DNA of 64,000 nt from Euphorbia lathyris (taxonomy: Eukaryota > Streptophyta > Magnoliopsida > Malpighiales > Euphorbiaceae): the NCBI RefSeq assembly GCF_963576675.1, contig NC_088916.1, forward strand, positions 21,055,501 through 21,119,500. Direction: 5' to 3'. Positions 1,939-64,000 of this stretch are shown here, piece after piece (within the stretch, counting starts at the first letter, position 1; every line of letters starts with the position of its first letter). The translations under genes and the position numbers were made by a program. The notes under the pieces were generated by a model. It saw only the letters and a program-made list of their open reading frames with translations. It did not search any database and was not told the DNA's origin.

Positions 1939-4268
1939 GTGAGCCTGAGATGTGCTGAGAAGTCAAAGCTATGGTATATTGACAGCGCATGCTCGAGGCA
2001 TATGACTGGTGATGAAACTCAGTTCATCACACTTGTGCATAAACGAGGAGGAAATGTAAGTTTCGGAGACAACAAAAAGGGTAAGATAGTGGGATCAGGT
2101 ACTATCGGAGGAAATCCTACTATTGAGTCAGTCTCCCTAGTCAGGGGTCTCAAATATAACCTATTGAGCGTGGCTCAGCTGTGTGACAGCGGTAGAAAGG
2201 TTGTATTTGATTCCACTGAGTGTCGGATACTCGAGGGTAAAACAAATGATTTATTTTAAATGTTTTATTTGGTTGTAAATGTTTTATTTTAAATACTAAA
2301 GACAACCTTGCTAAATTTGATTCTAAAGCTGATGAAGCTATCTTCTTAGGCTACTCAACAAACAGCAAAGCATATAGGGTGTTTAATAAACGAACTCGGG
2401 TCGTAGAAGAGTCTGTACATATTGAGTTCGATGAAACTGACCCTGCAGAGAAGACAAGTCAGCCTACCGAAGATGACCCATGCTCAGCTTCCGCTGATCA
2501 AACTGGAGCCACTGAGTCACCACCTCAAGGGCTGACCAAAGGTAAAAATGAACCTGAAATTATCTTTGATGACCAATATAATCCTGCAGAGATTGTTGAA
2601 ACACCAACTCCTGAAAACTCAACACTACCAAAACAGATCAAAATTCCAAGAGGACACTCAGAGAAGTCCATTCTTGATGCTACTGAGAACAACCTGATGA
2701 CAAGAAATCAACTCAGGAGATATCTTAGTAATGTTGCCTTCGTCTCAGTTCATGAACCAAAGAACTTTTCCGAAGCTGAGCACGATGAATTCTGGATTAA
2801 TGCGATGCAAGAAGAACTTGATCAATTCAAGAGAAACAAAGTGTGGGATTTAGTGCCTAACCCAAAGAATCAAAAGACCATTGGAACGAAGTGGGTATTT
2901 TGCAACAAGCTAGACGAACAAGGTAACGTAGTCAGAAACAAAGCCAGACATGTAGCTCAAGGTTACAGTCAGCAGGAAGGTATTGACTATGGTGAGACCT
3001 TTGCAACCATATCTAGGTTAGAGGCAATAAGAATATTGTGTGCATATGCTAGCTTTATGAACTTTAAATTGTTCCAAATGGATGTTAAGAATGCATTTCT
3101 TAATGGAGTTACAAATGAAGAGGTTTATGTTAGTCAGCCTCTAGGGTTTGAGGATTCAAAATTCCCAAACCATGTTTATAAACTCAAAAAGGCTCTGTAC
3201 GGCCTGAAGCAAGCACCACGTGCTTGGTACGAAAGGCTGACCAGGAACTATGTCAGAGGAAAAGCTGACACAACCTTATTCATTAAGAAAAAGGGTAAAG
3301 GTACCCTATTGGCACAAATATATATATATGATATTATCTTTGGTGCTACTAACGAAACTATGTGCAAGGAGTTTAGCAAACAGATGCAAACTGAGTTTGA
3401 GATGTCAATGATGGGAGAACTCAACTTCTTCCTTGGACTTCAAATCAAACAAGGTAAAAATGACATCTTCATTAGTCAGACCAAGTATGCTAAGGAGATA
3501 TTGAAGAAATTTGATATGGAAGGATGTAAGCCCATATCTACCCCAATGGCTACTGACACTGTGCTTTGTGCTGATGAGAAAGGTAAGTCAGTAGACATCA
3601 AGTTATATCGAGGTATGATTGGCTCTCTACTTTATCTAACTGCTAGTAGGCCAGACATTCAGTACTCAGTATGTTACTGTGCGAGATATCAAGCTGACCC
3701 CAGGGAATCTCACTATATAGCTGTGAAAAGAATCTTTAGATATTTGCAGAGCTCAATAAATGCAGGTTTGTGGTATCCAAACACAAATGACTTCACACTC
3801 ATTGGATACACTGACGCTGACTACGGACGAGACAAGCTGGAGTGTAAAAGCACTTCAGGAGGATGTCACTTCCTTGGAACCTGTCTAGTGTCTTGGTTCA
3901 ACAAGAAGCAGTCGTCAGTTGCCCTGTCAACCACTGAAGTTGAGTACATTACTGCTGGAAGCTGTGTGGCTCAAGTCCTATGGATTAAGCAACAGCTGGA
4001 GGATTATAGAGTACAGACAAAGACAATCAAAGTCAAATGCGACAACAAAAGTGCCATTGACTTATCCAAAAATCCAATCCAACACAGCATGATGAAGCAT
4101 GTCAGCATTAGGCATCACTTCATCAGAGACCATGTACTCAAGGGTGAGATCAAGCTGACCTATGTTCCAATAGATGAACAGCTTGCGGATATCTTTACGA
4201 AGCCCTTGGCTCGTGAGCAGTTTAACATACTAAGGGAAGCTATCGGTATGTCTAATCCTCTTCAATAA
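1939..4268 (+). pseudogene. pol: pol of element A: protease plus RT-RNase H, integrase core deleted
   Basis: The protease part (to 2259) has WYIDSACSRHMTG, the Ty1/copia aspartic protease signature. About 800 bp present in B (GAG-pre-integrase, the HHCC finger and the DDE integrase core) is absent between about 2260 and 2300. The next open stretch (2379-4268, 629 aa) holds the integrase tail (KRTRVVEESVHIEFDE), the copia RT (KARHVAQGYSQQEGIDYGE, KALYGLKQAPRAWYE) and RNase H (YTDADYGRDK, ALSTTEVEY, KCDNKSAIDLSKNP), ending in ADIFTKPLAREQFNILREAI. The RT box reads YIYD instead of YVDD: the first catalytic Asp codon (3327-3329) is TAT. Five residues are also missing after YERLT. The open frame is long but the enzyme should be inactive. 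Confidence 0.92.
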
Positions 4269-4786
4269 GTTTTCTGCGCTAAATGAATGTTGAGTGATTA
4301 TAATATGCCGAGTGATTATTGCTTAATGAGTAACTATCATATGTTGAGCTAACATGAATGGCATAAAATCACCATATACTGAGTAGACATACATATTGAG
4401 TGATTACTATGTACTGAGTTACTAAGCATGCTAAAAATCCCTTCTATGCAAAACTGAGCACTCAGAACTTCAAACGTTTAGTATTCTAGATACTGAGTAA
4501 AGCCACTTGCACAATTAATGTTGGCACGTGCATTTAAGTAGCCACCTAGGATGACGTAAGCATAATAATTAGAAAACCATGCATCGAATGTGTCACTAAT
4601 GCCAGAGATAACTGTCGATTGATCAACTCGAGGACAAACCGCCATTCCGACCTATCAGATCAACTCAAAACGACTATAAATAGTGGACGATTTCCCACTG
4701 ACTTCTCTTTACACTTGAAATCTTTGGAATTCGATTTCTCTCTCTCTAAATTCCCAAATCTTCTGTACTAAATTCTCAAGAACACC
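4269..4786 (+). promoter_or_regulatory. pol-ORF3 spacer of A with a predicted internal promoter
   Basis: This is a non-coding spacer. A TATA box CTATAAATAG lies at 4674-4683, about 112 bp before the ORF3 ATG. Upstream is a block (4539-4558) ending in GGATGACGTA that is identical at 23190-23209 in element B, plus a G-box CACGTG at 4525-4530. The first 200 bp carry loose repeats of GAGTGATTA/CTGAGT. Conservation of the TATA box and upstream block between A and B, and of the TATA box in E, argues for function. Transcription itself is inferred. Confidence 0.6.
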
Positions 4787-7704
4787 ATGTCTAGCGATTC
4801 CCAGAACAATTCCGGCAAAGAATACGACGACAATCACTCTGACATCAATCCTCCATCTCCTGCTGAGTAGGAATATTCGGATACCTCCACAGAGTCTTAG
4901 GGAGAAACCCATGATCAGCATGACCAATCTGTTCCCAAGGTCAGCATGCCTCGTAAAAACCCTCAAGCTGACTAAGAAACTCCATCGAAAAAGAAAAAGG
5001 AGAAAAAAACCGAAAAACCTAAGGAAAGGACGTTCTCCCCAGTCTTCAAAAACGTCAAAAATCTTAAAGTCTTTCGTTCCCGCTGGTTCTCCAAAGGATT
5101 CATAGAAGCTGAGAAACCCTTTTATGAGTGGATTTCAAAAAATGGCTGGACCGACCTCTTCTCTCGTCCTGGAACTACTTATCCACAGTTAGTGAGGGAG
5201 TTCTACACTAATCTCAGAGTAGCCGATGATGACAACGACTACATGATTAGAAAGGTCAAAAACAAGGATATCATCATCAATCTGTCTTATCTAGCTAAAC
5301 TGCTGAAGCTGAGGGAAAAAGGATCTGAACTCAGATGCACGAACGACTACCTGCGCGTAAATTATGCTATTAAGTTCTGTAAACCTAAGAACCACAAAGG
5401 AGAAATCGCCAGCACCTACATGGGTCAGCCTAAAAAACAAGCCCACTATATCCTGACCAACTTCCTTTTCCCCAAGGTCAACTCCTCCTCCTCAGCTTCC
5501 AACTTTGAGCAGTGCTTCATCTGGCACATACTGAACTACAAGCCGCTCAATCTGCCCGTATTTCTCATCGGAGCATTTCAAAGAAGCACCGGGATCCTTA
5601 GGATGGGCTCTCTCATCACCAGAATACTTCAGGATCACCAGGTCAGTCTAGTAGAAGAGATTGAGATCGAGGGCACTAAGATCACCTCAGTAGTACTGTT
5701 CGGCTTAGCTCACAGCCAACCCATCAAACCCAAGAAAGGAAAGGGGGCTATAGAACCCGCTGAGGAAGATATGGAAGGGGATAATATGGTTGAAGGGGAT
5801 AATATGGTTGAAGGAGCACAGGATAAGCTGATCAAGAAAGGAAAGGAAGTAAGGGTTGAAAAAGCACTCGCTGAGCGCACTAGGCAGGACAGAAAGAGGA
5901 AAGCTGACCAATCCTCAAGCAGACAGAATGGGTTCTGCTGAGCCAAGTAACATAGGTGCTGCTGAGCAAACTGCTGAGAACCAAGCCGAGTCACCAGTGA
6001 AGAACAAGGTTGTGGAAGGCCTTGATGCTGACCTTGGACTCAACTCTTCCTCTGAGTCCCTTGACTCCATTACTGCTGATCCTTCTCCTCAAACCAACAC
6101 TCAAAAGGACAGCACAGAAAAGCGGTTCAAACGCAAGGCTCTGAAACCCAAAGTCATAGACTTATTGGATGAATCTCCACTGAGGGACCCAATCACTGAT
6201 CTCACTGGGCTTCAATTCTAGTTTTTAACAGACATCATTAAACCCACTCCCGACCAAGTGAAGGAAAAACAAGCCTCTGTTTCTCAAGCTGAGGAACAAG
6301 CCGACCCAAAAGCTTCTAAGGGTCCAATCTCTGCCGACACTTCTGCTCATCCTTCCACTAAGCAAGTGCTCGAAGTCTATGCTGCTCAATCCAACGAGTT
6401 AGCAAAGGAAACTCCTCCTGCTCAAGCCAGCTCTGAGTTGCCTCAACCACAAAACTCTACTCAACCTCAGACTGACACTGAGCAGGTTAATAACTCTGCT
6501 GATCAAACTCTTCCTACTCCTACCAAGCAGACAGAAAACCAGTCAGCACCTGCTGCTGACCTAAATAAAAGTGCAGCTATTGAACAAGCTGGCACCTTCG
6601 CTTCCGGGCAGCACCAAACACCTCCTCCATCTAGTGCTGACAACATCACGGCCCCTGAGCATAACACTGATGACTCCTACACTTATCTGAATGCTTCTGA
6701 GTCTGGAAGGAAAATCATTGACTCAGCTCAAGCTCTACTTCAAGATATTCATCAGTCTCACGCCGATGCTGCTGGGTCTATTCCTGCTGAGCCAACCCAA
6801 ATATCCTCTGTCACTCAACTTCTGACTGAACTTAAGGGTCTCAAAGAACTGATGAGTGTCATGACATATTTTGTCTCTCAACAGCCCAAGCAAGAATCCA
6901 TAGTGAAGCTGGCTGAACTCCACCTGATGATGGTGAATCACATGAACTCCATCCATGGTCAACTTAATGCCTTATCAGCTGCGAACTCAACATCTGCAAC
7001 CTCTGTGGAGGTCAATCACCTTTTCTCCCAGCTGTCCTCTAAGCTGACCGGAGCTCGTGACCTTATCTCCTCCTCTTCTCAATGCTCCATAGAACAGATT
7101 GGTGAAGCCATTCGCCTACTCAACCTAAGCAAAGAGGAAATGGACACTGACCAAATCAATACCAACGAGATTCTGCAATGCACTCAATCGACACTTGCGC
7201 ATGTCCGGCACACGAATGTTCAACATCAGTCATATGATACTGCGCTGCTCAGGATGTACTATCAATCCTATGCACGGATGACTGAATCAATAAATTGGAT
7301 CGGGAAATCTCTAGAGTATTTACTCAGTATGCTCAGTGCCAACATAAAAAATGCCCGCCTCAAGTATGGCCGATGGCGTGTAGGTCTTTAAAGGTCTAAG
7401 GGAGAGTACGAGTCAAATGCAACAGTATTCCTTGATACTGACTCGTGCTGTTCATCAAGGGACATTCTATGCTCCTCCTCCTCCATCTCATGATGCTGGA
7501 AAAATGGGGGAGAAAGATCAAACAAAGCAAGCTGCTGGAACTCAGCAGAAAACGGGGGAGAAAGGTAAAGCCAAAATGCCAGCTGCCGAAACTCAGCAGA
7601 AGCCTGGTTCAACTCATGCTGTCCCGAGCACCCACACTCAGCAACAACGAACTACCCAAACCAAACCCAAGTCAAATCAAGTTCAAGCCAATATTAAGAA
7701 GTAG
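4787..7704 (+). pseudogene. ORF3 of element A (post-pol protein), broken
   Basis: This is a third sense ORF between pol and the 3' LTR, the position of the env-like or extra ORF of Sireviruses; its function is unknown. The ATG at 4787 starts a Ser/Asp/Glu-rich leader with three in-frame stops (TAG, TAG, TAA by about 4974), then a basic KKKKEKK stretch. The core has YPQLVREFYTNL, HYILTNFLFPK, ASNFEQCFIWHIL and RMGSLITRIL. It resembles the domain annotated as putative plant transposon protein (my recollection of PF20167, not searched). Next come a KRK-rich basic patch, a Gln/Pro/Ala/Glu-rich linker, and a helical region (SVTQLLTELKGLKELM, SQCSIEQIGEAIRLLNL). The tail has DAGKMGEK and ends NIKK. 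A frameshift near 5870-5935, a TAG at 6219 and a frameshift near 7370 break it. No signal peptide or membrane segment is visible, so env identity is unsupported. Confidence 0.75.
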
Positions 7705-16838: not shown

Positions 16839-18046
16839 ATGTTGAGTTTAATTGTTTATAAGATATTGAGATTAAAAATCCCAAAGGCCCATAAAGTGGA
16901 AGTCAAGCCCAAATCAACACATCAAGACCATTCGGCTCAAGAGTTCAAAACGAAAACGTATCAAGTAAAACGACGACTCAGCAAGCGAAGGATCGAGAAG
17001 CCTTCGAGGCAAAAGCTTCAAGTGGAAGCTGCTGAGTTGGACGACAATGCAGTCTGGACAGCGGCAGATAATGTTCAACTTCTAGACAAAGTATTTCTAC
17101 TTTGGGAAAAGTTCAGAAGGCGCAGGAAGCTTTCTCGTGGACTTTTCCTTAAATGTCGAAACATTCTGCCGAAGACTGACGAAGACAAAAGATGCGTGAA
17201 TCCTATTGGCCAACGACGCTGAGCACGCCCAGAGTGATAACGACAGGAAGCCGTTTCCCTCCAACGGTTATTTCGAAATTCGAAATGACCAGGTGCCTCA
17301 AATGTCACTATATAAAGGCCATCCATTTGCTTCAATCGATGCAGATCTTCAACTAGTCAAAACGCTGACCAAATTCATACTTGAAGTTTCTGTGAGAAAA
17401 GCAAAGGAAATACCTTACACCAATTCTTAATCTTTGTGTAAAAGTCTAGAGTGATTTCCAATCATCTAAAGTGTCTTAGCAATCGTTGTTTAGGACAAAC
17501 ACTTTATCATTTCTAGAAGAATAGAAAGGAGATGTTGAGTACTCGGTTATAGTACTCAGCGTAGATATAGGAGTGAGTAGAGGTATAGAGGAAGGTACTC
17601 TTGTTATACTCAGCTTCTATCTGTAAAAGGTTTTGTGCTCTACCTTTAAAGAGCTCAGTAGAGAATTCAAAAAGCTCGGAACGAGTTCCGGGGACTAGAC
17701 GTAGGCGGAGAGGCCGAACTAGGATAAGTCTGCTGAGTAACATCTTTCTAACCCTTAAACTCCTTTAATATATATTGCTTGCTATAAAACTGACTAAGTA
17801 AAGAACTCACGCTGAGTTAAGTTTACTAAGAAGCTGAGTTCAGGAATAGACTCTAAGTGATATTTCCTGACTCAAGTAAAGAAGCAGACTTAGTCACAAG
17901 TTGACTAAGCTTGTGTCTTGAATCTACTTAGTGACGCTGTGTAAACCTTTTCATAAGAAAAGAAGTCAGCCTCAATGGACAAATTTTTTTAAATAGTTCC
18001 TATCCCCCCCCTTGGAACTAACTTGTCACGTTATAAGGGACCAACA
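16839..18046 (+). repeat. 5' LTR of B, second part
   Basis: It is collinear with 36068-37277 with a few percent divergence. The promoter TATA CTATATAAAGG is at 17308-17318, the conserved ACTAGACGTAGGCGG block is near 17693, and the LTR ends at a C-run and GGGACCAACA. Confidence 0.93.
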
Positions 18047-22983: not shown

Positions 22984-23433
22984 ATTTCAAGTATAGTATG
23001 CATGCTGAGTGAATTACCATGCAGAATGATTTATGCTATTACATGCTGTGTGTTTATCTTAAGCTGAGCAACTAAGCATAAGAATTATTCCTTTGTATAA
23101 CACTGACTACTTAGAATTTTAAACGCTTGAAATTCTTAACACTGAGTGAAGAGCCATTGCAAACTTTAATACAAAGCACGCGAATTAAATAGCCACCTAG
23201 GATGACGTATAGGCTATAATTAGAAAATACACGCGCGTATGTGTCATAAATGCCAGAATCTTTGTCGATTGAGAATCTCGAGGTAAAACGGACAACCCAA
23301 CGCCTTGGATTAACTCAACATCTCTATAAATAGTGGATGAATTCCCACTTTTATTTCTTTACACTTAGAAATATTTGGCATTCATACTCTCTCTCTAAAA
23401 ATTCCCAAACTTCCCAAAAACTTCTCTGAGAAT
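22984..23433 (+). promoter_or_regulatory. pol-ORF3 spacer of B with a predicted internal promoter
   Basis: The TATA box CTATAAATAG is at 23324-23333, 109 bp before the ORF3 ATG. The block AGCCACCTAGGATGACGTA (23191-23209) is shared with A. The sequence around the TATA box (CTATAAATAGTGGA, then TTCCCACT and TTTACACTT) is also shared, although the rest of the spacer has diverged. Confidence 0.6.
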
Positions 23434-24877
23434 ATGAGGAACGGTTCTCTAAATATCTTCGGTGCCGGTTTACCCAACAACCGCTCCGATGCAAACCCCA
23501 AATCTCTTACCCAGCGTGACCACGCCAAGGTCACAACACTGAGCAAGAAAGCTCAAGCTGTCCAAGCCACCTCTTCGAAGGGAAACCAACAGCAAAAGGA
23601 CAAGGGCAAGAAAGTTGTGGAACCACCTACTCTCAAGTTTTCGAGAGTGTGAGGGGGTGGAAGATTGATCACTCACGATGGTTTTCAAGGGGATTCATGG
23701 ACGCCGAGCAACCTTTTTGTGAGTGGATCAAGAATAATGGTTGGACCGAGCTGTTCTCAGTTCGTGATGCTACTTACCCTGAGTTGGTAAGAGAATTCTA
23801 CGCCAACCTAAAGATCGCCAATGATGACCGGAACTACCTATCTTCTCATGTTCGAGGAAAGGACATATTCATCAACCCTGCATATCTTGCCTCACTGTTC
23901 AAGCTGAAAAATGAAGGAGCTATACTTCGTAAATCTGGTGACCATGAGAAAACCAACTACGTTCAGACCTTCTGTAAACTTGAGGGTCATATAGGTGAAA
24001 TCTCGAGCACTTCCATGGGTCGGCATCAAAATATGGCCCATTACATACTGACCAATTTCCTTTTCCCTAAAATCAACTGCACCAACTCAGCAACCAATTT
24101 TGAGCAGTGTTTTATATGGCACATGCTGACCTACACACCGATAAACATGCCCGTATTCATAATCGATGGGTTTCTACGAAGTACAGGAACCCTTAGGTTA
24201 GGCTCTTTTATCACCCGAATCCTCAAGGATCACAATGTGGACATGGTTGCGGAAATCAGCACTCGGGGAACCGAGATTACAGCTGGTGCCCTATTCGGTT
24301 TGGCATATGATCAACCTATTGTGCCGAAAAAAGGAAAAGGGGAAGCTGTCCAGAACGCTGAGGGGGCGGTGACTCGAAAGGGAAGAACTCAAAGAAAGAG
24401 GAAGGTTGTCCAGAGCACCTCTAAAGCTACTGCTTCTGCCCCAAAGAAGGTTAAATTTGTATGTGTAGGAACTAAGCCTCAGATTCAACAAGGACAGGGT
24501 GGATCTAGGTCAGCTGAGAAAAGACCTAGGCAAGCTGAGCCTGAGACAGAAGAAAGAGAGGTTGGTGACCAACCATTAAGGAAGAGGAAGAAGCAGCTCA
24601 ATTTTGAGTTAAGACCTATCGATGCACTACCAACTGATGTCATCGTTCCTCCTAACTCACACTATGTACAAAGTCAAGACGTTGACGCTGAGCAATAGAT
24701 AGATGATCAGGAAGAACAAGACCAACTGGGTGGTCAGTTTGTCGAGGAAGAATTGGAGGAACAGTTTGAGGAAGAAGAACTGGATGATGAGTTTGAAGAA
24801 GAAGAAAGTGGTCAGGATGACAATGAAGAAACAGCTGATGATGAGCACCTTGAACCAATCAACACTGAGTTGGTTGA
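23434..24877 (+). pseudogene. ORF3 of element B, 5' part (split by Athila element C)
   Basis: The start is ATG 23434 (MRNGSLNIFGAG). The leader is basic and frameshifts near 23640, so the core is read from 23649. The core has SRWFSRGFMDAEQPFCEW, YPELVREFYANLKIA, HYILTNFLFPK, TNFEQCFIWHML and LRLGSFITRIL, matching A and E. The next part is very basic (RKGRTQRKRK) and then strongly acidic (EEEL/EEEES runs). A TAG at 24696-24698 interrupts it. Element C inserted in the acidic stretch. The function is unknown; it resembles a putative plant transposon protein domain. The basic patches could bind nucleic acid, which is inference. Confidence 0.75.
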
Positions 24878-33855: not shown

Positions 33856-35439
33856 GTTGACGAAGAAGAAACTGAGCACACATCAAATGCTCCCGCTGTT
33901 CAAAGGGAAGCTTCACCCACTGACTCTATTGAGTCCATTCCTTGTGACCCTACTCCTCCAAAGCTAAAGAGACTGAGGAAGAAGAAGGCTTTTCAAGCAC
34001 CCGTCATTGACCTCATGGGTGACTCACCGCTAAGGGATGAGATCTCTGACCTTACAGATGTACATCTTCGGTACTTCTCAATCCCTCTTGAGTCTCAACT
34101 AGAGCAACAAGAAAATCAAGCCTCTGTTTCTCAACCGAAGGAACATGCCGACTTAAATGCTTCTGCCAGCCAAAGTAATGTTGAGCAAGTGCTCGAAGAT
34201 TCCGCTCCTCAACATGTTGAGCAAGCTACGGAATTACCTGCTCAGGTGAACACTGAACTTCCTTAACTTCCAACACCTAGTCAGCTTCAGCCTGACCCTG
34301 AGCAAGCAACACTTTCTGCCGATCCTCCACTTCTATAACTCAATGTGCAGAATCAAATCCAGTCAGTTTCTACTAACAATCCAAATTCCAGGCCAGCCGC
34401 TGACAATAATGGGCCTTCTAATGATGAGCAGAACCAAACACCGCCTTCATTCAATTCTACTCCTCCTCCGGCATCTGGGTCAACAAATGATGGATCCTTA
34501 AGCTATTTGAATGCCTCTGAGTCTGGTCGAAGAATCGTTGACTCAGCCCAAGCTCTTATCCAGGACCTCCATCAAACCGGTACCAATGCCGCTGGGTCTA
34601 CTAATGTTGAGACAACTCCACTTTCGTCTGTCACTCAGCTTCTAACTGAGATCAAAGGTCTGAAGGATCTTCTGAGTGTCATGACTTCATTGCAATCTCA
34701 ACAGCCCAGGCAGGACTCTATAACAAAGCTGGCCGAACTCCAGCTGACCATGGTAAACCACATGAACTCAATGCAAGGGCAGATTCATCAATTGTCAACT
34801 GCGAACTCAGCATATGCCACTTCTGCCAAAGTCCATCATCTCTTCAGCCAGCTTCATTCTGAGCAGGAGAAAACAAATCACCAACTTTCCACCTCCTCTC
34901 AATGCTCCATTGAGCAAATTAGCGAGGCTGTGCGTCTGCTGAACTTAAACAGGCAAGAGATGGCAACTGACGAGCTTAAAACCAACGAGATTCTGAAGTA
35001 TTCTTGAGTAACTTTCAACCATGTGCACCAAATCAACGCTCAACATGAGTATTTTGATTCATCTTTGCTAAAGATGTTTCATCAAGCTTTTGCAATGCTC
35101 ACTGAAACCATACACTGGGTTGGCAAGTCTCAAGCCTATGTTTTGAGTATGCTGAGTGTTGCATCTGTCAGAATTCCTCGAGCTATTGTGGATGAGGGAG
35201 TCCCAATCTTTGACGGAATGAATGAAAGCACAAGAAGGCTAAAGGCTTTTTCTAGACGCCTAACTCAAGCTGCCATTGAAGAAACCTTCATTGCCAAAAA
35301 TGATGCTGGCAAAACGGGGGAGAAAGAACAAGCCCGAAGAACTCAGCAATCTGAAGAAGCTTCAGGAAGTCAGCAAAGACACAAGGGAAAGGGTAAGCTA
35401 AAAGAGCATGAAGCCCAACTCAACTACAAGAAGAAATAG
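33856..35439 (+). pseudogene. ORF3 of element B, 3' part
   Basis: It continues the reading frame cut by element C; the first five bases are the duplicated target. It is acidic at first (DEEETEH), then has VIDLMGDSPLRDEISDLTD, a Gln/Pro/Ser-rich linker, SYLNASESGRRIVDSAQAL, SVTQLLTEIKGLKDLLSVMT, LTMVNHMNSMQGQI and SQCSIEQISEAVRLLNL. The last two blocks have heptad-like spacing, suggesting coiled coil. The tail is DAGKTGEKE, ending in a basic NYKKK. Stops: TAA 34264-34266 (A has CAA at the matching codon), TAA 34336-34338, and TGA 35005-35007. All three are in one frame, so nonsense changes alone have broken this half. Confidence 0.78.
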
Positions 35440-56397: not shown

Positions 56398-58188
56398 ATG
56401 GCTGAGAACAGCACTCGTTTCCTTCCAGGGAACCAAACAACACAGATACTCCCCGAGGGATTATCAATTAGTCGGCCTCCCTTGTTCTTCGGATCAAATT
56501 ATACATTCTGGAAGAACAGGATGAAAAACTTTATTCAAGCCACAAACATGAGTGCATGGCTTGCAATAGTACAAGGCACATACGTGCCTTATAAAACTGT
56601 TAACAATGAGAAAGTTGTTAAGAGTGAAACTGAGTGGTTAGAAGATGACCTTAAGAAACTACAAAACAACGCTTCGGCTATCAACATGCTTCACTGTGCT
56701 CTAGATGCTGCAGAGTACAATAAAATTTCAGGTTGCGAGTCAGCATAGGAGATTTGGAAAAAGCTGGAGGTGACCTATGAAGGCACAAGCAAGGTCAAGG
56801 AGTCCAAAGTGAACCAACATATGAGACTGTACGAGCTGTTCGAGATGAATGAAAACGAAGACATCTCGGAGATGAACTCAAGGTTCACCAATATTATAAA
56901 TGAGCTCAAGAGGCTAGGAAAGAACTTCACCGAAGAGGAACAGGTGAAGAAAATATTGAAAAGTCTTCCCAAAAGCTGGCAAGCTAAGAAGACAGCTGTG
57001 GAAGAAGCTCAGGACTTGACCACGTACAAATACGACGAGCTGATCGGATCTCTGTTGACTCATGAGATCTCTATGAAAAACTCCGAAGCAAAAGAAAAGT
57101 TAGAGGACAAGAAACAAAAATCACTTGTCATGAAAGCTGACTCAACCGAAGCTGACTCATCAGACAATGAGGAAATGGCCATGTTCACAAGGAAGATGAA
57201 GAAGCTGTTCAGAAAGAATGACAAGAACAGCAAGAGGTTATTCAGAAGAAGCGACAAATACAGAGCTGAGTCCAGCGACATCAGATATAAAAAGGACAGC
57301 TCTAAGCCTGTCGCATGCTTCGAGTGCCATCAAACTGGGCACATTAAGTCAAGCTTCCCTAATCTGAAGAAAGAAAAGAAGGGAAGCAAAAAGGCTATGG
57401 TCGCTACATGGAGTGACAACGATGACTCAACATCATCAGAAGCTGAAGCCACTGAGTCGACAAACATCTGTTTCATGGCCGACGACGCTGTTGACCAAAG
57501 CCAATCTGAGCAAGCTGACCTCTCTGACGGTTCTGACCAAGAGGAACACTCCAATGAGGTAACATCTCTACTCTTGCTTAGAAATGAAATGGTTAACGCC
57601 CTGAGTGATTTGTATACACTGACTAAAAAGTGTAACAAGAAAATAAAAGCACTCAGCAGGCGGTGTGACGAGATTGAAGAGGTCAAACTCAGTGACCTTC
57701 GATATCTTCTCCAAGACAACTCAACTTTGCATGACAACATGGAAATTATGCACAAGTTTGTCTCGGAAGTCCAATCAGATTCAAAGAAACTGAGAAAGGA
57801 TGTCATAACCCTACCGAACCTAATAAAAGGCTCAACTAAAAATAAATCCCATGCTGAGTACTCAGGTACTGGTCAGTGTAGACAATTCACTTAGTCTGAC
57901 TGTTGTGGGAAAAGAGGACACACAATAGATGTGTGTTGGTATAATCGGCGGATTGTCCAATGTGACTTCTACGGAAAGAAAGGTTATACCACTAAGGTAT
58001 GTTGGCATGCTCAGCACAATGGTGCTGACCAAAAACAAAGTCACCCCAAAAGGGTAACTTATTGTGACTTCTATGGTAAACAAGGCCACACCATAAATGT
58101 ATGCCGTCACAAGATAAAATATGAAGATTCACCTGTTCGCACTAACAAACAAGGACCCAACAAGAATTGGGTACCTAAAGATGAATAG
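56398..58188 (+). pseudogene. gag: gag of element D, full length with two in-frame stops
   Basis: It keeps the ATG lost in B (MAENSTRFLPGNQTTQILPE) and one frame of 597 codons. TAG at 56746-56748 and TAG at 57892-57894 both sit where relatives A and B have CAG, so C-to-T. The first knuckle is CFECHQTGHIKSSF, with its last Cys lost. Three C-terminal knuckle units follow (SDCCGKRGHTIDVC, CDFYGKKGYTTKVC, CDFYGKQGHTINVC) against two in A and B. In the last two, the second Cys is Tyr. It ends GPNKNWVPKDE. The acidic and helical middle (NEMVNALSDLYTLTKKCNKK) matches B. Confidence 0.92.
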
Positions 58189-60768: not shown

Positions 60769-61288
60769 AACTCCCCCATTTTGATGTTGGCAAAACTAAT
60801 CAGCAAGGAACTCAGTATGAGCTCCCCCATGATAGTTGACCTTTTTAATTAAGTGAACTCCCCCGTAAGGATAGAACTACTGACTTAGTTTTATTCTAAA
60901 CATTCTAAGGTTTAGCTGAATAAGCCTAAGATCAGTTTTCAGTTATAGGTCAGCTTATGGGTCATATTCTATTTTACTCGGTATTCAGCGGAAGTGATGT
61001 ATAGTGACGGAGCGCTGAGTAAATCATCTGTTCAATGGTTTATATTTGACAAGTTCAAACATTTATATGCAGCATGCATTTATATAATACTTGGCATTTG
61101 ATGGATGAATAATCAATAATTTAAATTCGAATGCAAGTATTTCAGAAGTTAGGCATATTGTTTAAAACAAAACAACAAACAAGAAAAACATTACAAAACA
61201 AGATAACGAAATTCTTCCTAACTTCTAACACTCTAGTTTCTTTCACTTAGAGTTCCTTCTCCTTAGTTGCCACTTTTCTCCCCCGTTT
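60769..61288 (-). promoter_or_regulatory. polypurine tract cluster of element E
   Basis: On the minus strand: GGGGGAG tracts at 60769-60782 (LTR-adjacent AAAATGGGGGAGTT), 60821-60830 (ATGGGGGAGC), 60857-60867 (ACGGGGGAGT) and 61273-61288 (AAAACGGGGGAGAAAA). The last is within the ORF3 word DAGKTGEK. The stretch between is non-coding. Confidence 0.75.
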
Positions 61289-62960
61289 TGCCAGCATCAG
61301 CAGTAGGCAAATCAACGGTAGGGGCAGGAGAATTGGCCTGATCCTGCAGCACACGTATTTGACCCTCCAAGGAATTCATGTGACTGACCATAGTCAGTAT
61401 GAGTTCGGTCATTTTGGTCAGTTGAGCATGTGGTGGTGGCTGCGGCTGGACAGAGGAGAAGTGATTGATCAAATCATGGATTTCACGTAGAATATGGTGA
61501 GTGACAGGTGGATGAGAGGACTGAGCAGGAGTTGATGGAGTAGGTGCTTGTTCTTGAAGCAGAGTGCTTGCTGAGGCGATGACACGCCGACCTGACTCAG
61601 TGGCACCAAGGTGTGCATATTTGGCAGAAGTGGGTTCACACTGAGGGCCTTGTGTAGTGACAGGACTACGAGGCGTGTTGACCTCAGGTGCTGAGTTGCT
61701 TTGAGTTTGAGGTGGGAGTGGAGCTTCTTTTGGACTTACAGGGGTCTTGGCTTGTTTCTCTACGGGAGGAATAGAGGCTTGATTTTGTGGAGACCCCTCT
61801 TGAGCAACATGACCCTCAAGAACAGGTTCTTCAGCTGTTCGCAGCTTCTTCTCAGCTGACTCAGCTAGGTCTTGATCAGCTTTCCTCTTGTTGCTTTCTA
61901 TCAGCCTTATCTTTCTCGGGACAGTATGAATATCCTTCGAGCATGCTCCCTTTTTCTTCTTCTTCTCAGCTTCAGCAACCTTAGATGGCACAGTGGACGG
62001 ATTCTCAGTTGGAGGTTCATTGATTGGTTCTGTACCCTCAGCAGTGTGAGCGGCTTCAGCCATAACATCATCTATAATGGCATCCAGGTTAACCAGATTT
62101 TCCATTTCTCCAATGGGTTGCTCATCCTCAGCCATAAGATTCTCCTCCTCAGGAGTGGCATTTTCATCATATCCTCTAAGAGGTTGGCTATGTGAGAGTC
62201 CATTCAGCAGACGTGCAGTGATAGCAGTTCCCGTTGAACTTATTTCATCAACAGTCTCTATGTTCTTGTCTTGTATTATCCTGGTGATGAGAGAACCTAA
62301 ACGGAGCTTCCTTCCGCTTCTTTGGAAAGCCCCGACCAAAAATACAGGCATGTTGAAAGGAGTGCTGGTCAGCATATGCCAGATGAAACATTGTTCAAAA
62401 TTAGAGGCAGATGAGGGAGAGCTGAGTTTAGGGAAGATAAAGTTGGTCAGCAAGAAGTGGGCCATCTTCTGATTTTTGCCCATGCAGGTGCTGGGTACTT
62501 CTCCCTTGTAGTTTCTAGGTTTATAGAACCCCTTCATCTTTTCTGCGATGGCTTTTGGTATCGGCTCCTTTGTTGTCCTGAACTGAATCCCTGTATTTGG
62601 TATCTCTAGCAATGTGGCTAGATATTCAGGGGTTATCACTATCTTTTAACCCTTGACTGTGGTCTCTAGGTAGTCAGAGTCATCTGCATCAACATGCAGG
62701 TTGGAGTAGAACTCTCTCACCATTGTGGGATAGGTTTGACCGGAAAGAGAGAAGAGACCTGTCCATTTGTTGTTTTTGATCCATTCACAGAATGGAGTCT
62801 CTGAAGAGATGAAATCAGGATGGAAGAATCGACTCCTTAGTACCTCTTGATTCTTGGCCCAAGAGTGTACTTTGATCATTTTTCTCATTAGGCTAGTTGA
62901 AGGACCAGCCTGGTCAGAGGATTTGAGAGTTGGAGAGAAATAACTTTCGTTATAAGACAT
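61263..62960 (-). pseudogene. ORF3 of element E, one in-frame stop
   Basis: The frame is 566 codons, shorter than in A and B because the linker is reduced. The ATG at 62960 gives MSYNESYFSPTLKSSD. The core has ETPFCEWIKNNKWTGLF, YPTMVREFYSNL, TPEYLATLLEIP, MAHFLLTNFIFPK, SNFEQCFIWHMLTS and LRLGSLITRII. A basic KKKKK/KRK patch comes next, then a Pro/Gln-rich linker and GATESGRRVIASASTLL. A helical block LTKMTELILTMVSHMNSLEGQI follows, and the tail is DAGKTGEKSGN. TAA at 62646-62648 falls where A and B have a Lys or Asn codon. No TM segment is visible. Conservation of the core across two LTR subfamilies suggests selection on the protein; its role is unknown. Confidence 0.78.
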
Positions 62961-63417
62961 TTTTGAAGTTTTGAAGCTCTTTGGAAAATTTAGAAGCTTT
63001 CTTAGGGTTCAATGTATATGTGACGAGGGTAGTGGGTTAGTATTTACTATTTATAGATTTTATGGTATAGGGTTCCATTTGACTTTTATCCAGTTTTGCT
63101 CTGGGTTGTCCAATCGGCAGAAACCCTGACACTTATGACACTATTAAGACGTTATTCGGCGCATGCGCAGTACAGGTGTCACTTCGCGTGTAGTGACATT
63201 AAATGCTAATAAGTGCTTTTACTTAGCGTTTGTTGATATAAACGTTTCATATTCTAAGTAGTCAGTGCATTCTTTAAGGATGGTTTTTAGTTCAAGTTTG
63301 AAAACTAATTTACTCAGTGTGCAAGATTACTCAGTATTGTATATTTAGTCAGTTTCAATGACATACTCAGCAAACAATAAATCATTCAGCATTCAATCAT
63401 CATTTATGCACATAAAT
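62961..63417 (-). promoter_or_regulatory. pol-ORF3 spacer of E with a predicted internal promoter
   Basis: CTATAAATAG on the minus strand at 63047-63056 lies about 95 bp before the ORF3 ATG. Upstream words such as GTCATAAGTGTCAG and GGACAACCC align with the B spacer. The TAGCCACCTAGG block of A and B is not recognisable here. Confidence 0.55.
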
Positions 63418-64000
63418 TTACTGAAGAGGATTAAACATACCAATTGCTTCTCTCAGTATGCTAAATTGCTCTCGTGCTAGAGGCTTTGTAAAGATATCAG
63501 CAAGCTGCTCGTCTGTTGGCACATAAGTCAGCTTGATTTCTTTCTTGAGTACATGATCTCTGATGAAGTGATGTCTTATGCTGACATGTTTCATCCTGCT
63601 GTGTTGAACTGGGTTCTTTGAGAGGTCAATTGCACTTTTGTTGTCGCATTTGACTTCAATTGTCTTTGTTTGAACACCATAATCTTCAAGTTGTTGCTTA
63701 ATCCAAAGGACCTGAGCAACACAGCTTCCAGCAGCAATGTACTCAGCTTCAGTTGTGGACAGGGCTACTGACGCCTGCTTCTTGCTGAACCAAGATACAA
63801 GACAGCTTCCTAGGAATTGGCATCCTCCAGAGGTGCTTTTTCTTTCCAGCTTGTCTCGTCCATAGTCAGCGTCAGTGTATCCGATGAGTGTAAAGTCATG
63901 AGTGTTTGGATACCACAGACCTGCATTTACTGAGCTTTGCAAATATCTAAGGATCCTTTTTACGGCTATGTAATGGGATTCCTTAGGGTTAGCTTGATAT
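63418..64000 (-). CDS. pol: pol of element E, C-terminal RNase H (partial, continues beyond the window)
   Basis: The frame is open from the window edge to a TAA at 63418. Visible features are NPKESHYIAVKRILRYL (end of RT), the RNase H with YTDADYGRDKLERKSTS, SWFSKKQASVALSTTEAEY and KCDNKSAIDLSKNP, and the copia end ADIFTKPLAREQFSILREA. The catalytic D, E and D positions are all intact, and the Arg codon that became TGA in B is intact here. This fits a young insertion. Confidence 0.93.
   Translation of the reverse strand, partial: YQANPKESHYIAVKRILRYLQSSVNAGLWYPNTHDFTLIGYTDADYGRDKLERKSTSGGCQFLGSCLVSWFSKKQASVALSTTEAEYIAAGSCVAQVLWIKQQLEDYGVQTKTIEVKCDNKSAIDLSKNPVQHSRMKHVSIRHHFIRDHVLKKEIKLTYVPTDEQLADIFTKPLAREQFSILREAIGMFNPLQ

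Follow-up and report, generated by a model that had tools for sequence, protein, structure and literature searches.

The window, a stretch of 64,000 nucleotides of the Euphorbia lathyris genome (G000:C7:21055501-21119500), contains three retrotransposon copies, A, B and E, in which an additional open reading frame (ORF3) follows a Ty1/copia pol in the same sense, RVT_2 or its RNase H end being found upstream. The elements are referred to as Sireviruses, a label taken over from the original prediction and not from a pol tree with named elements. All evidence was drawn from the sequence of this one genome, searched as 1.02 Gb in 33 contigs. The features of the three copies are as follows (window coordinates):

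2379..4268, + strand: end of pol of copy A (reverse transcriptase RVT_2 and RNase H; PF07727, 240 bits), with the stop at 4266-4268
4674..4684, + strand: candidate internal TATA box of copy A, CTATAAATAGT, 112 bp upstream of the ORF3 ATG
4787..7704, + strand: ORF3 of copy A, broken, from the ATG at 4787 to a TAG ending at 7704
5195..5644, + strand: PF20167 core of copy A (profile positions 21-176), 38.7 bits, under the 45-bit cut-off
23324..23334, + strand: candidate internal TATA box of copy B (TATA at position 5825 of the slice from window position 17501)
23434..24877, + strand: ORF3 of copy B, part 1, limits from the original prediction; 23634-24647 aligns to the ORF3 of L026
23733..24242, + strand: PF20167 core of copy B, 69.1 bits, above the curated cut-off
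33856..35439, + strand: ORF3 of copy B, part 2, limits from the original prediction; 33865-35415 aligns to the ORF3 of L026
59418..60762, - strand: match to the 3' LTR of copy E, limits from the query L047:430-1780
61263..62960, - strand: ORF3 of copy E, 566 codons, with a single in-frame stop at 62648-62646
63046..63056, - strand: candidate internal TATA box of copy E, 95 bp upstream of the ORF3 ATG
63421..63942, - strand: RNase H of copy E, end of pol, B-like in the tree

The ORF3 of copy A is interrupted by stops in its frame at positions 4868, 4898 and 4973, and the frame shifts near 5923-5940 and again near 7350; the ORF3 of copy B is split by a 9-kb interruption into two aligned parts. 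The 3' LTR was located for copy E only; the other match to this LTR lies outside the window (C7:21123873-21125217). Alignments and the common PF20167 core confirm that the three copies carry one and the same post-pol protein, as originally predicted, the cores of A and B being 58% identical. The lengths found, from 565 residues (E type) to 957 residues (frame of L026), agree with the predicted range of about 570 to 1000. A Gag on the plus strand at 56398-57978 adjoins copy E and comes from another element; it is 86% identical to the Gag of L022. Polypurine-like GGGGGAG motifs are present within the 3' end of the ORF3 region (window positions 7506 and 7554, and codon 559 of L032), which fits the multiple-PPT signature of Sireviruses given in the accessible part of PMC2829016.

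The core of ORF3 was identified as PF20167 (Transposase_32), in line with the kinship to a domain of putative plant transposon proteins that had been proposed for it. The curated cut-off of 45 bits is exceeded by copy B and by the intact E-type copy L032 (57.2 bits), as well as by other intact Sirevirus copies, the MAKTRQ family and a probable Euphorbiaceae cellular gene (see below for the latter two). The piece from copy A and the first piece of copy E (25.9 bits) fall below it, and the second piece of copy E taken alone has no PF20167 match at E≤1. The name Transposase_32 appears to be historical, transposase activity finding no support here. Searching the genome with the core of B gave at least 116 scored matches among 13,940 candidates (≥84% identity, the window's own counted), and the E piece gave at least 92 among 15,334 (≥90% identity), 50 of which are free of in-frame stops over the matched part; both counts are lower bounds. 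Protein database searches with B and with alignment A1 returned E. lathyris proteins only, the domain alignment A2 gave 10 matches at E≤0.01, and a search of solved structures by sequence gave no match.

The presence of ORF3 was checked starting from 150 scored E-type RNase H matches, from which the 14 best-ranked copies without an E-type ORF3 neighbour were chosen by eye. ORF3 sequence lies downstream of RNase H in all 14, being of E type in nine and B-like in five; one of the nine, L056, keeps just the C-terminal part.

Selection was examined in six E-type copies (L032-L037), picked as stop-free and all 565 residues long. Between their subgroups the core (first 260 codons) shows 35.2 synonymous versus 8.4 non-synonymous changes per pair, that is an uncorrected pN/pS of 0.07, against 0.06 for RNase H (18.4 versus 4.3 changes); the rest of ORF3 shows 27.7 versus 38.3 changes per pair and a ratio of 0.42. 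Within the subgroups, where changes are few, the core ratios are 0.06 and 0.45. Neutrality of the core is rejected in all three disjoint E-type pairs (binomial p from 4e-15 to 1.6e-12), and the non-core part of ORF3 gives p values of 0.022, 0.0097 and 0.062 in the same pairs. Across families the core dN/dS is 0.06-0.18 in the printed pairs with computable dS, dS being below 1.5 in just 23 of 136 pairs; the printed ratios are 0.15-0.57 for the linker and 0.05-0.82 for the C-terminal part. The pattern of substitutions shows purifying selection on the ORF3 core, as expected for the conserved protein of the original prediction. Neither dN/dS near 1 in young copies nor ORF3 missing from relatives, the two observations named beforehand as speaking against that prediction, was encountered, since core pN/pS is far below 1 and ORF3 is found in 14/14 copies.

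In the protein, the PF20167 core is followed by a linker that is charged, rich in proline and evolves fast, and then by a C-terminal block. Hydropathy over 19 residues peaks at ≤1.39 in all 13 pieces examined (Sirevirus ORF3, 11; Athila, one; the cellular protein, one). By this measure the pieces have no predicted transmembrane segment, which bears out the earlier statement that membrane segments are absent. The position of the gene is that of eORF-3'F, the env-like gene of Sireviruses (SIRE lineage), which is described as a highly variable sense gene between pol and the 3' LTR of Ty1/copia elements in the accessible parts of PMC6317226, PMC3414828 and PMC2829016. ORF3 is likewise a sense frame after a Ty1/copia pol and before the 3' LTR (placed for copy E), but it differs in having no transmembrane segment and in having a PF20167 core that is recognisable across types. 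According to the literature label, ORF3 would be a degenerate envelope gene serving passage from cell to cell or from plant to plant. Its post-pol sense position is as in retroviruses, and transmembrane and coiled-coil domains are reported to be common to Sirevirus env-like genes (PMC3414828, accessible part). However, a membrane anchor of the retroviral-envelope type is absent by hydropathy from all 11 Sirevirus pieces, Pfam scans of the ORF3 pieces gave no envelope match, and the core has homologues in ATHILA ORF1 and in a probable cellular gene. An envelope function of ORF3 is accordingly very improbable, and we favour over it a soluble factor that would act at the host interface.

The basic and acidic patches that had been taken to suggest a nucleic-acid or capsid partner do exist: ORF3 contains a basic 20-mer of net charge +8 with a KKKKK patch, as well as an acidic run, and these patches may bind nucleic acid. 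The C-terminal heptad score (a home-made score applied to three proteins) exceeds every one of 100 shuffles for the E type and is reached by 11 of 100 shuffles for L026 and by 22 of 100 for L025. The structure model of the B core is poor (pLDDT 49). For the related cellular protein P0004 the model has a mean pLDDT of 63, with 71-91 in the core blocks except residues 141-180, and predicts long C-terminal helices; Foldseek with this model gave no match at E≤0.001, and a second look gave mainly C-terminal helical look-alikes. ORF3 could thus be a partner of the particle or of nucleic acid, forming oligomers by a C-terminal coiled coil, binding RNA or cDNA by its basic patches and aiding packaging, nuclear import or integration. 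The charged patches, the E-type heptad block and the modelled helices of P0004 agree with such a role. The heptad signal of L026 and L025, however, is within the shuffles, the protein has no sequence relation to Gag, and a plain structural partner would presumably evolve in step with Gag and pol and not be swapped. We consider this explanation doubtful; what stands of the suspected partnership is the patches, and not a sequence relation to Gag.

Profile comparisons show that the ORF3 core is distantly homologous to ATHILA ORF1 (PF03078). The PF20167 profile (alignment A2) matched the ATHILA ORF1 protein of the same genome with 91% probability, colinearly over most of the length, and wider PF20167 and Athila sets matched with 93.8% probability (E 1.7e-7, 250 columns). 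The Sirevirus set alone reached just 3.9% against the Athila set, so that the link to Athila needs the wider PF20167 set or A2. Twenty column shuffles of the comparison gave at most 0.8%, and the controls (plant mobile domain, copia RT, copia integrase and gypsy RT) gave at most 0.5% against the PF20167 sets. A direct PF03078 match is absent at E≤1 in the seven ORF3 pieces of A, B and E; the Athila protein itself has a strong PF03078 match and a weak PF20167 match (2.4e-5). Its 486-residue ORF follows, in sense, a Ty3/gypsy RT and integrase (assigned by eye and not by Pfam), so that within a single genome two LTR superfamilies carry this type of gene at the same position. The 3' additional ORF of Athila is therefore like ORF3 in its post-pol sense position and its colinear homologous core, but it belongs to the other superfamily, is only about 20% identical in the aligned part and, in the one linker examined, is preceded by no TATA box, unlike the Sirevirus frames. 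A sunflower Athila ORF matching PF20167 was reported earlier (PMC11728184), in an article whose accessible part contains no word beginning with 'sire'; a link between PF20167 and Sireviruses was not met in the titles of the literature searched. The gene sharing between Sireviruses and Athila could reflect a transfer between superfamilies, in either direction. The proposed capture from, or exchange with, another transposon family thus holds insofar as exchange is seen directly among Sireviruses (below) and a homologous gene stands after pol in Athila.

Two other relatives were rejected. Kinship with the plant mobile domain PF10536, suggested by a resemblance of motifs, reached 0.2% probability. 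Kinship with Gag was rejected by sequence, the Gag profile of the own element giving 0.1% and Gag giving at most 0.4% against the PF20167 sets.

PF20167 is also found outside the retrotransposons described so far. A probable cellular gene of 510 aa (L021:7144-8673, G000:C10 near 40.034 Mb) has the best PF20167 score, 91.4 bits, of the 150 scored in the genome. Its relatives in Manihot, Ricinus, Euphorbia peplus and Hevea are 57-74% identical, which suggests that an ORF3-type protein was domesticated early in Euphorbiaceae. The repeated MAKTRQ family (L009-L019, for example L011:7125-8609 and L015:6931-8484) encodes proteins of 495-518 aa when whole, composed of PF20167 and a tail. The tail resembles NIF phosphatase in one of two proteins scanned, below the cut-off (E 0.012). 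These loci adjoin arrays of a ~188-bp tandem repeat in three of five loci self-compared and have no other frame of ≥250 aa within 10 kb.

The trees of ORF3 and pol disagree. They were built from 22 rows, which represent 21 distinct copies because L006 and L022 are the same one, and the groups received their names only once the distances were known. The E type is joined with B, L005, L027 and L028 in the RNase H tree (support 100/100), whereas the protein tree of the ORF3 core joins it with L022 and L026 (100/99); the RNase H and ORF3 data each reject the grouping of the other (p-AU 1.75e-5 and 2.6e-4). On a smaller scale, L037 combines an RNase H from one E subgroup (100/99) with an ORF3 from the other (82/86, protein tree): its DNA shows 0-4% versus up to 10% divergence over most of ORF3, and the switch lies near the pol-ORF3 linker. 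The clearest case is that of L068 and L071, whose RNase H sequences differ in 1 of 522 bases. Behind L068 stands an ORF3 with 67.8% identity to B and 48.9% to the E type, whereas the one behind L071 shares 96.3% with the E type. From these comparisons ORF3 and pol are shown to recombine as modules, one pol being joined to different ORF3s. The alignment of L050 and L051, downstream of L027 and L028, ends within 0.5 kb.

Assemblies do fail at long near-identical repeats, and the chimeric copies might for this reason be assembly errors or nested insertions. This is hardly credible in view of their number and regularity. The B-like carriers make up five of the 14 copies, lie on five different contigs and occupy three positions in the RNase H tree (with uneven support; L069 joins L035/L036 at 92/87). 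Their ORF3 starts at a similar distance in the four with an aligned start, and identity of the linker to the E type stops ~196 bp past RNase H in all three aligned.

The core exceeds RNase H in divergence at four-fold sites in 218 of 231 pairs, so that ORF3 versions are generally older than the pols accompanying them. The excess is significant in six of seven pairs chosen by us (Fisher test); in the young E-type pair L032 and L035 the core shows no such excess (p 0.84). Of the 13 exceptions, the 12 printed consist of the duplicate pair and of comparisons within the E type. Pooled four-fold-site divergence is 0.26-0.27 for integrase, 0.30 for RNase H, 0.33 for RT, 0.41 for gag and 0.60 for the ORF3 core. 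This order, lowest in the three pol domains and higher in gag and the core, would also be expected if pol were homogenised by sweeps or gene conversion and ORF3 did not move as a unit. Conversion in pol alone, however, cannot place ORF3s of ~49% identity behind RNase H sequences 1/522 apart; a junction must have been made between RNase H and ORF3, whichever side was mobile. Homogenisation of pol as the whole explanation is rather unlikely, and the modular recombination described above is preferred, in which the moving part could be either ORF3 or pol. Extra ORFs common to distant types of retroelements were read as modular exchange in bdelloid rotifers as well (PMC5408684, accessible part). 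Their ORF3s are other proteins (GDSL, DEDDy), and here it is recent swaps within a lineage that are visible in the DNA.

The pol-ORF3 linker is ~460-560 bp long where the start can be assigned. TATAAAT, in the context CTATAAATAGT, occurs 95-115 bp upstream of the ORF3 start in 15 of 18 linker rows, or 15 of 17 distinct copies; altered boxes are found in L006/L022 (CTTTAAATAGT) and L026 (TTATAAGTAGT). Among 283 filled 11-bp windows of the linker, the TATA window is the best conserved (0.975 versus a mean of 0.791, the next being 0.959) in 11 copies chosen for families, some of them close kin. In six of six further stretches, the five chimeric ones included, CTATAAAT is present. TATAAAT arises by chance in 12-18% of shuffles of a single linker, and the weight of the evidence therefore lies in position and conservation. 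A similar element, CTATAAATAGA, is held by the E-type LTR (L047:1017-1027). An internal promoter was proposed by Peterson-Burch and Voytas, and Bousios et al. 2010 reached no conclusive identification of it (PMC2829016, accessible part); the conserved TATA box is a concrete candidate for it. Internal TATA box and cassette exchange, both seen here, were not met for eORF-3'F in the accessible parts of PMC6317226, PMC3414828 and PMC2829016. They also go beyond the original prediction, whose overall interpretation is partly supported.

These observations are probably best explained together if ORF3 is a functional accessory gene that is swapped as a cassette, internally promoted and translated into a soluble factor acting in trans. 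The internal promoter would give ORF3 an mRNA of its own, apart from that of gag-pol. When RNAs are packaged together, reverse transcription would switch templates within the pol-ORF3 linker or close to it and so exchange the cassette between them, and the protein would act at the host interface. Its role most likely consists in countering silencing or in directing the particle or cDNA within the nucleus; we put this forward tentatively, as a guess, the silencing analogy being taken from the anti-silencing proteins of Vandal transposons (PMC11728184, accessible part). It is also conceivable, if on balance unlikely, that the ORF3 versions are old alleles under frequency-dependent selection, for example for escape from host silencing or from competing elements, with pol sweeping and re-joining the favoured ORF3, an internal promoter and an ancient Athila transfer. 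Such alleles would be an intracellular retrotransposon counterpart of the antigenic modules of viruses.

The swapped accessory gene bears on the long-open origin of plant 'envelope-like' genes, which is called unknown by MASiVEdb (PMC3414828, accessible part); how these genes are expressed and what they do is likewise described as unknown or unproven in the literature consulted. The core common to the divergent ORF3s and Athila favours fast evolution from one superfamily, at least in this genome. The precisely placed TATA box provides a testable start site, and near-identical pols with different ORF3s are natural comparisons of ORF3 function.

B-type ORF3 cores are repeated three times with a step of ~1.92 kb at C8:50618742-50623627 and form a cluster near the end of C10 (74.39-75.28 Mb), which indicates that pieces of ORF3 were amplified locally. 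Judged by its similarity to B (67% identity, with 64% of the query covered), the public E. lathyris entry P0001, a "pollen-specific leucine-rich repeat extensin-like protein", is a fragment of ORF3, and its public name is thus probably wrong.
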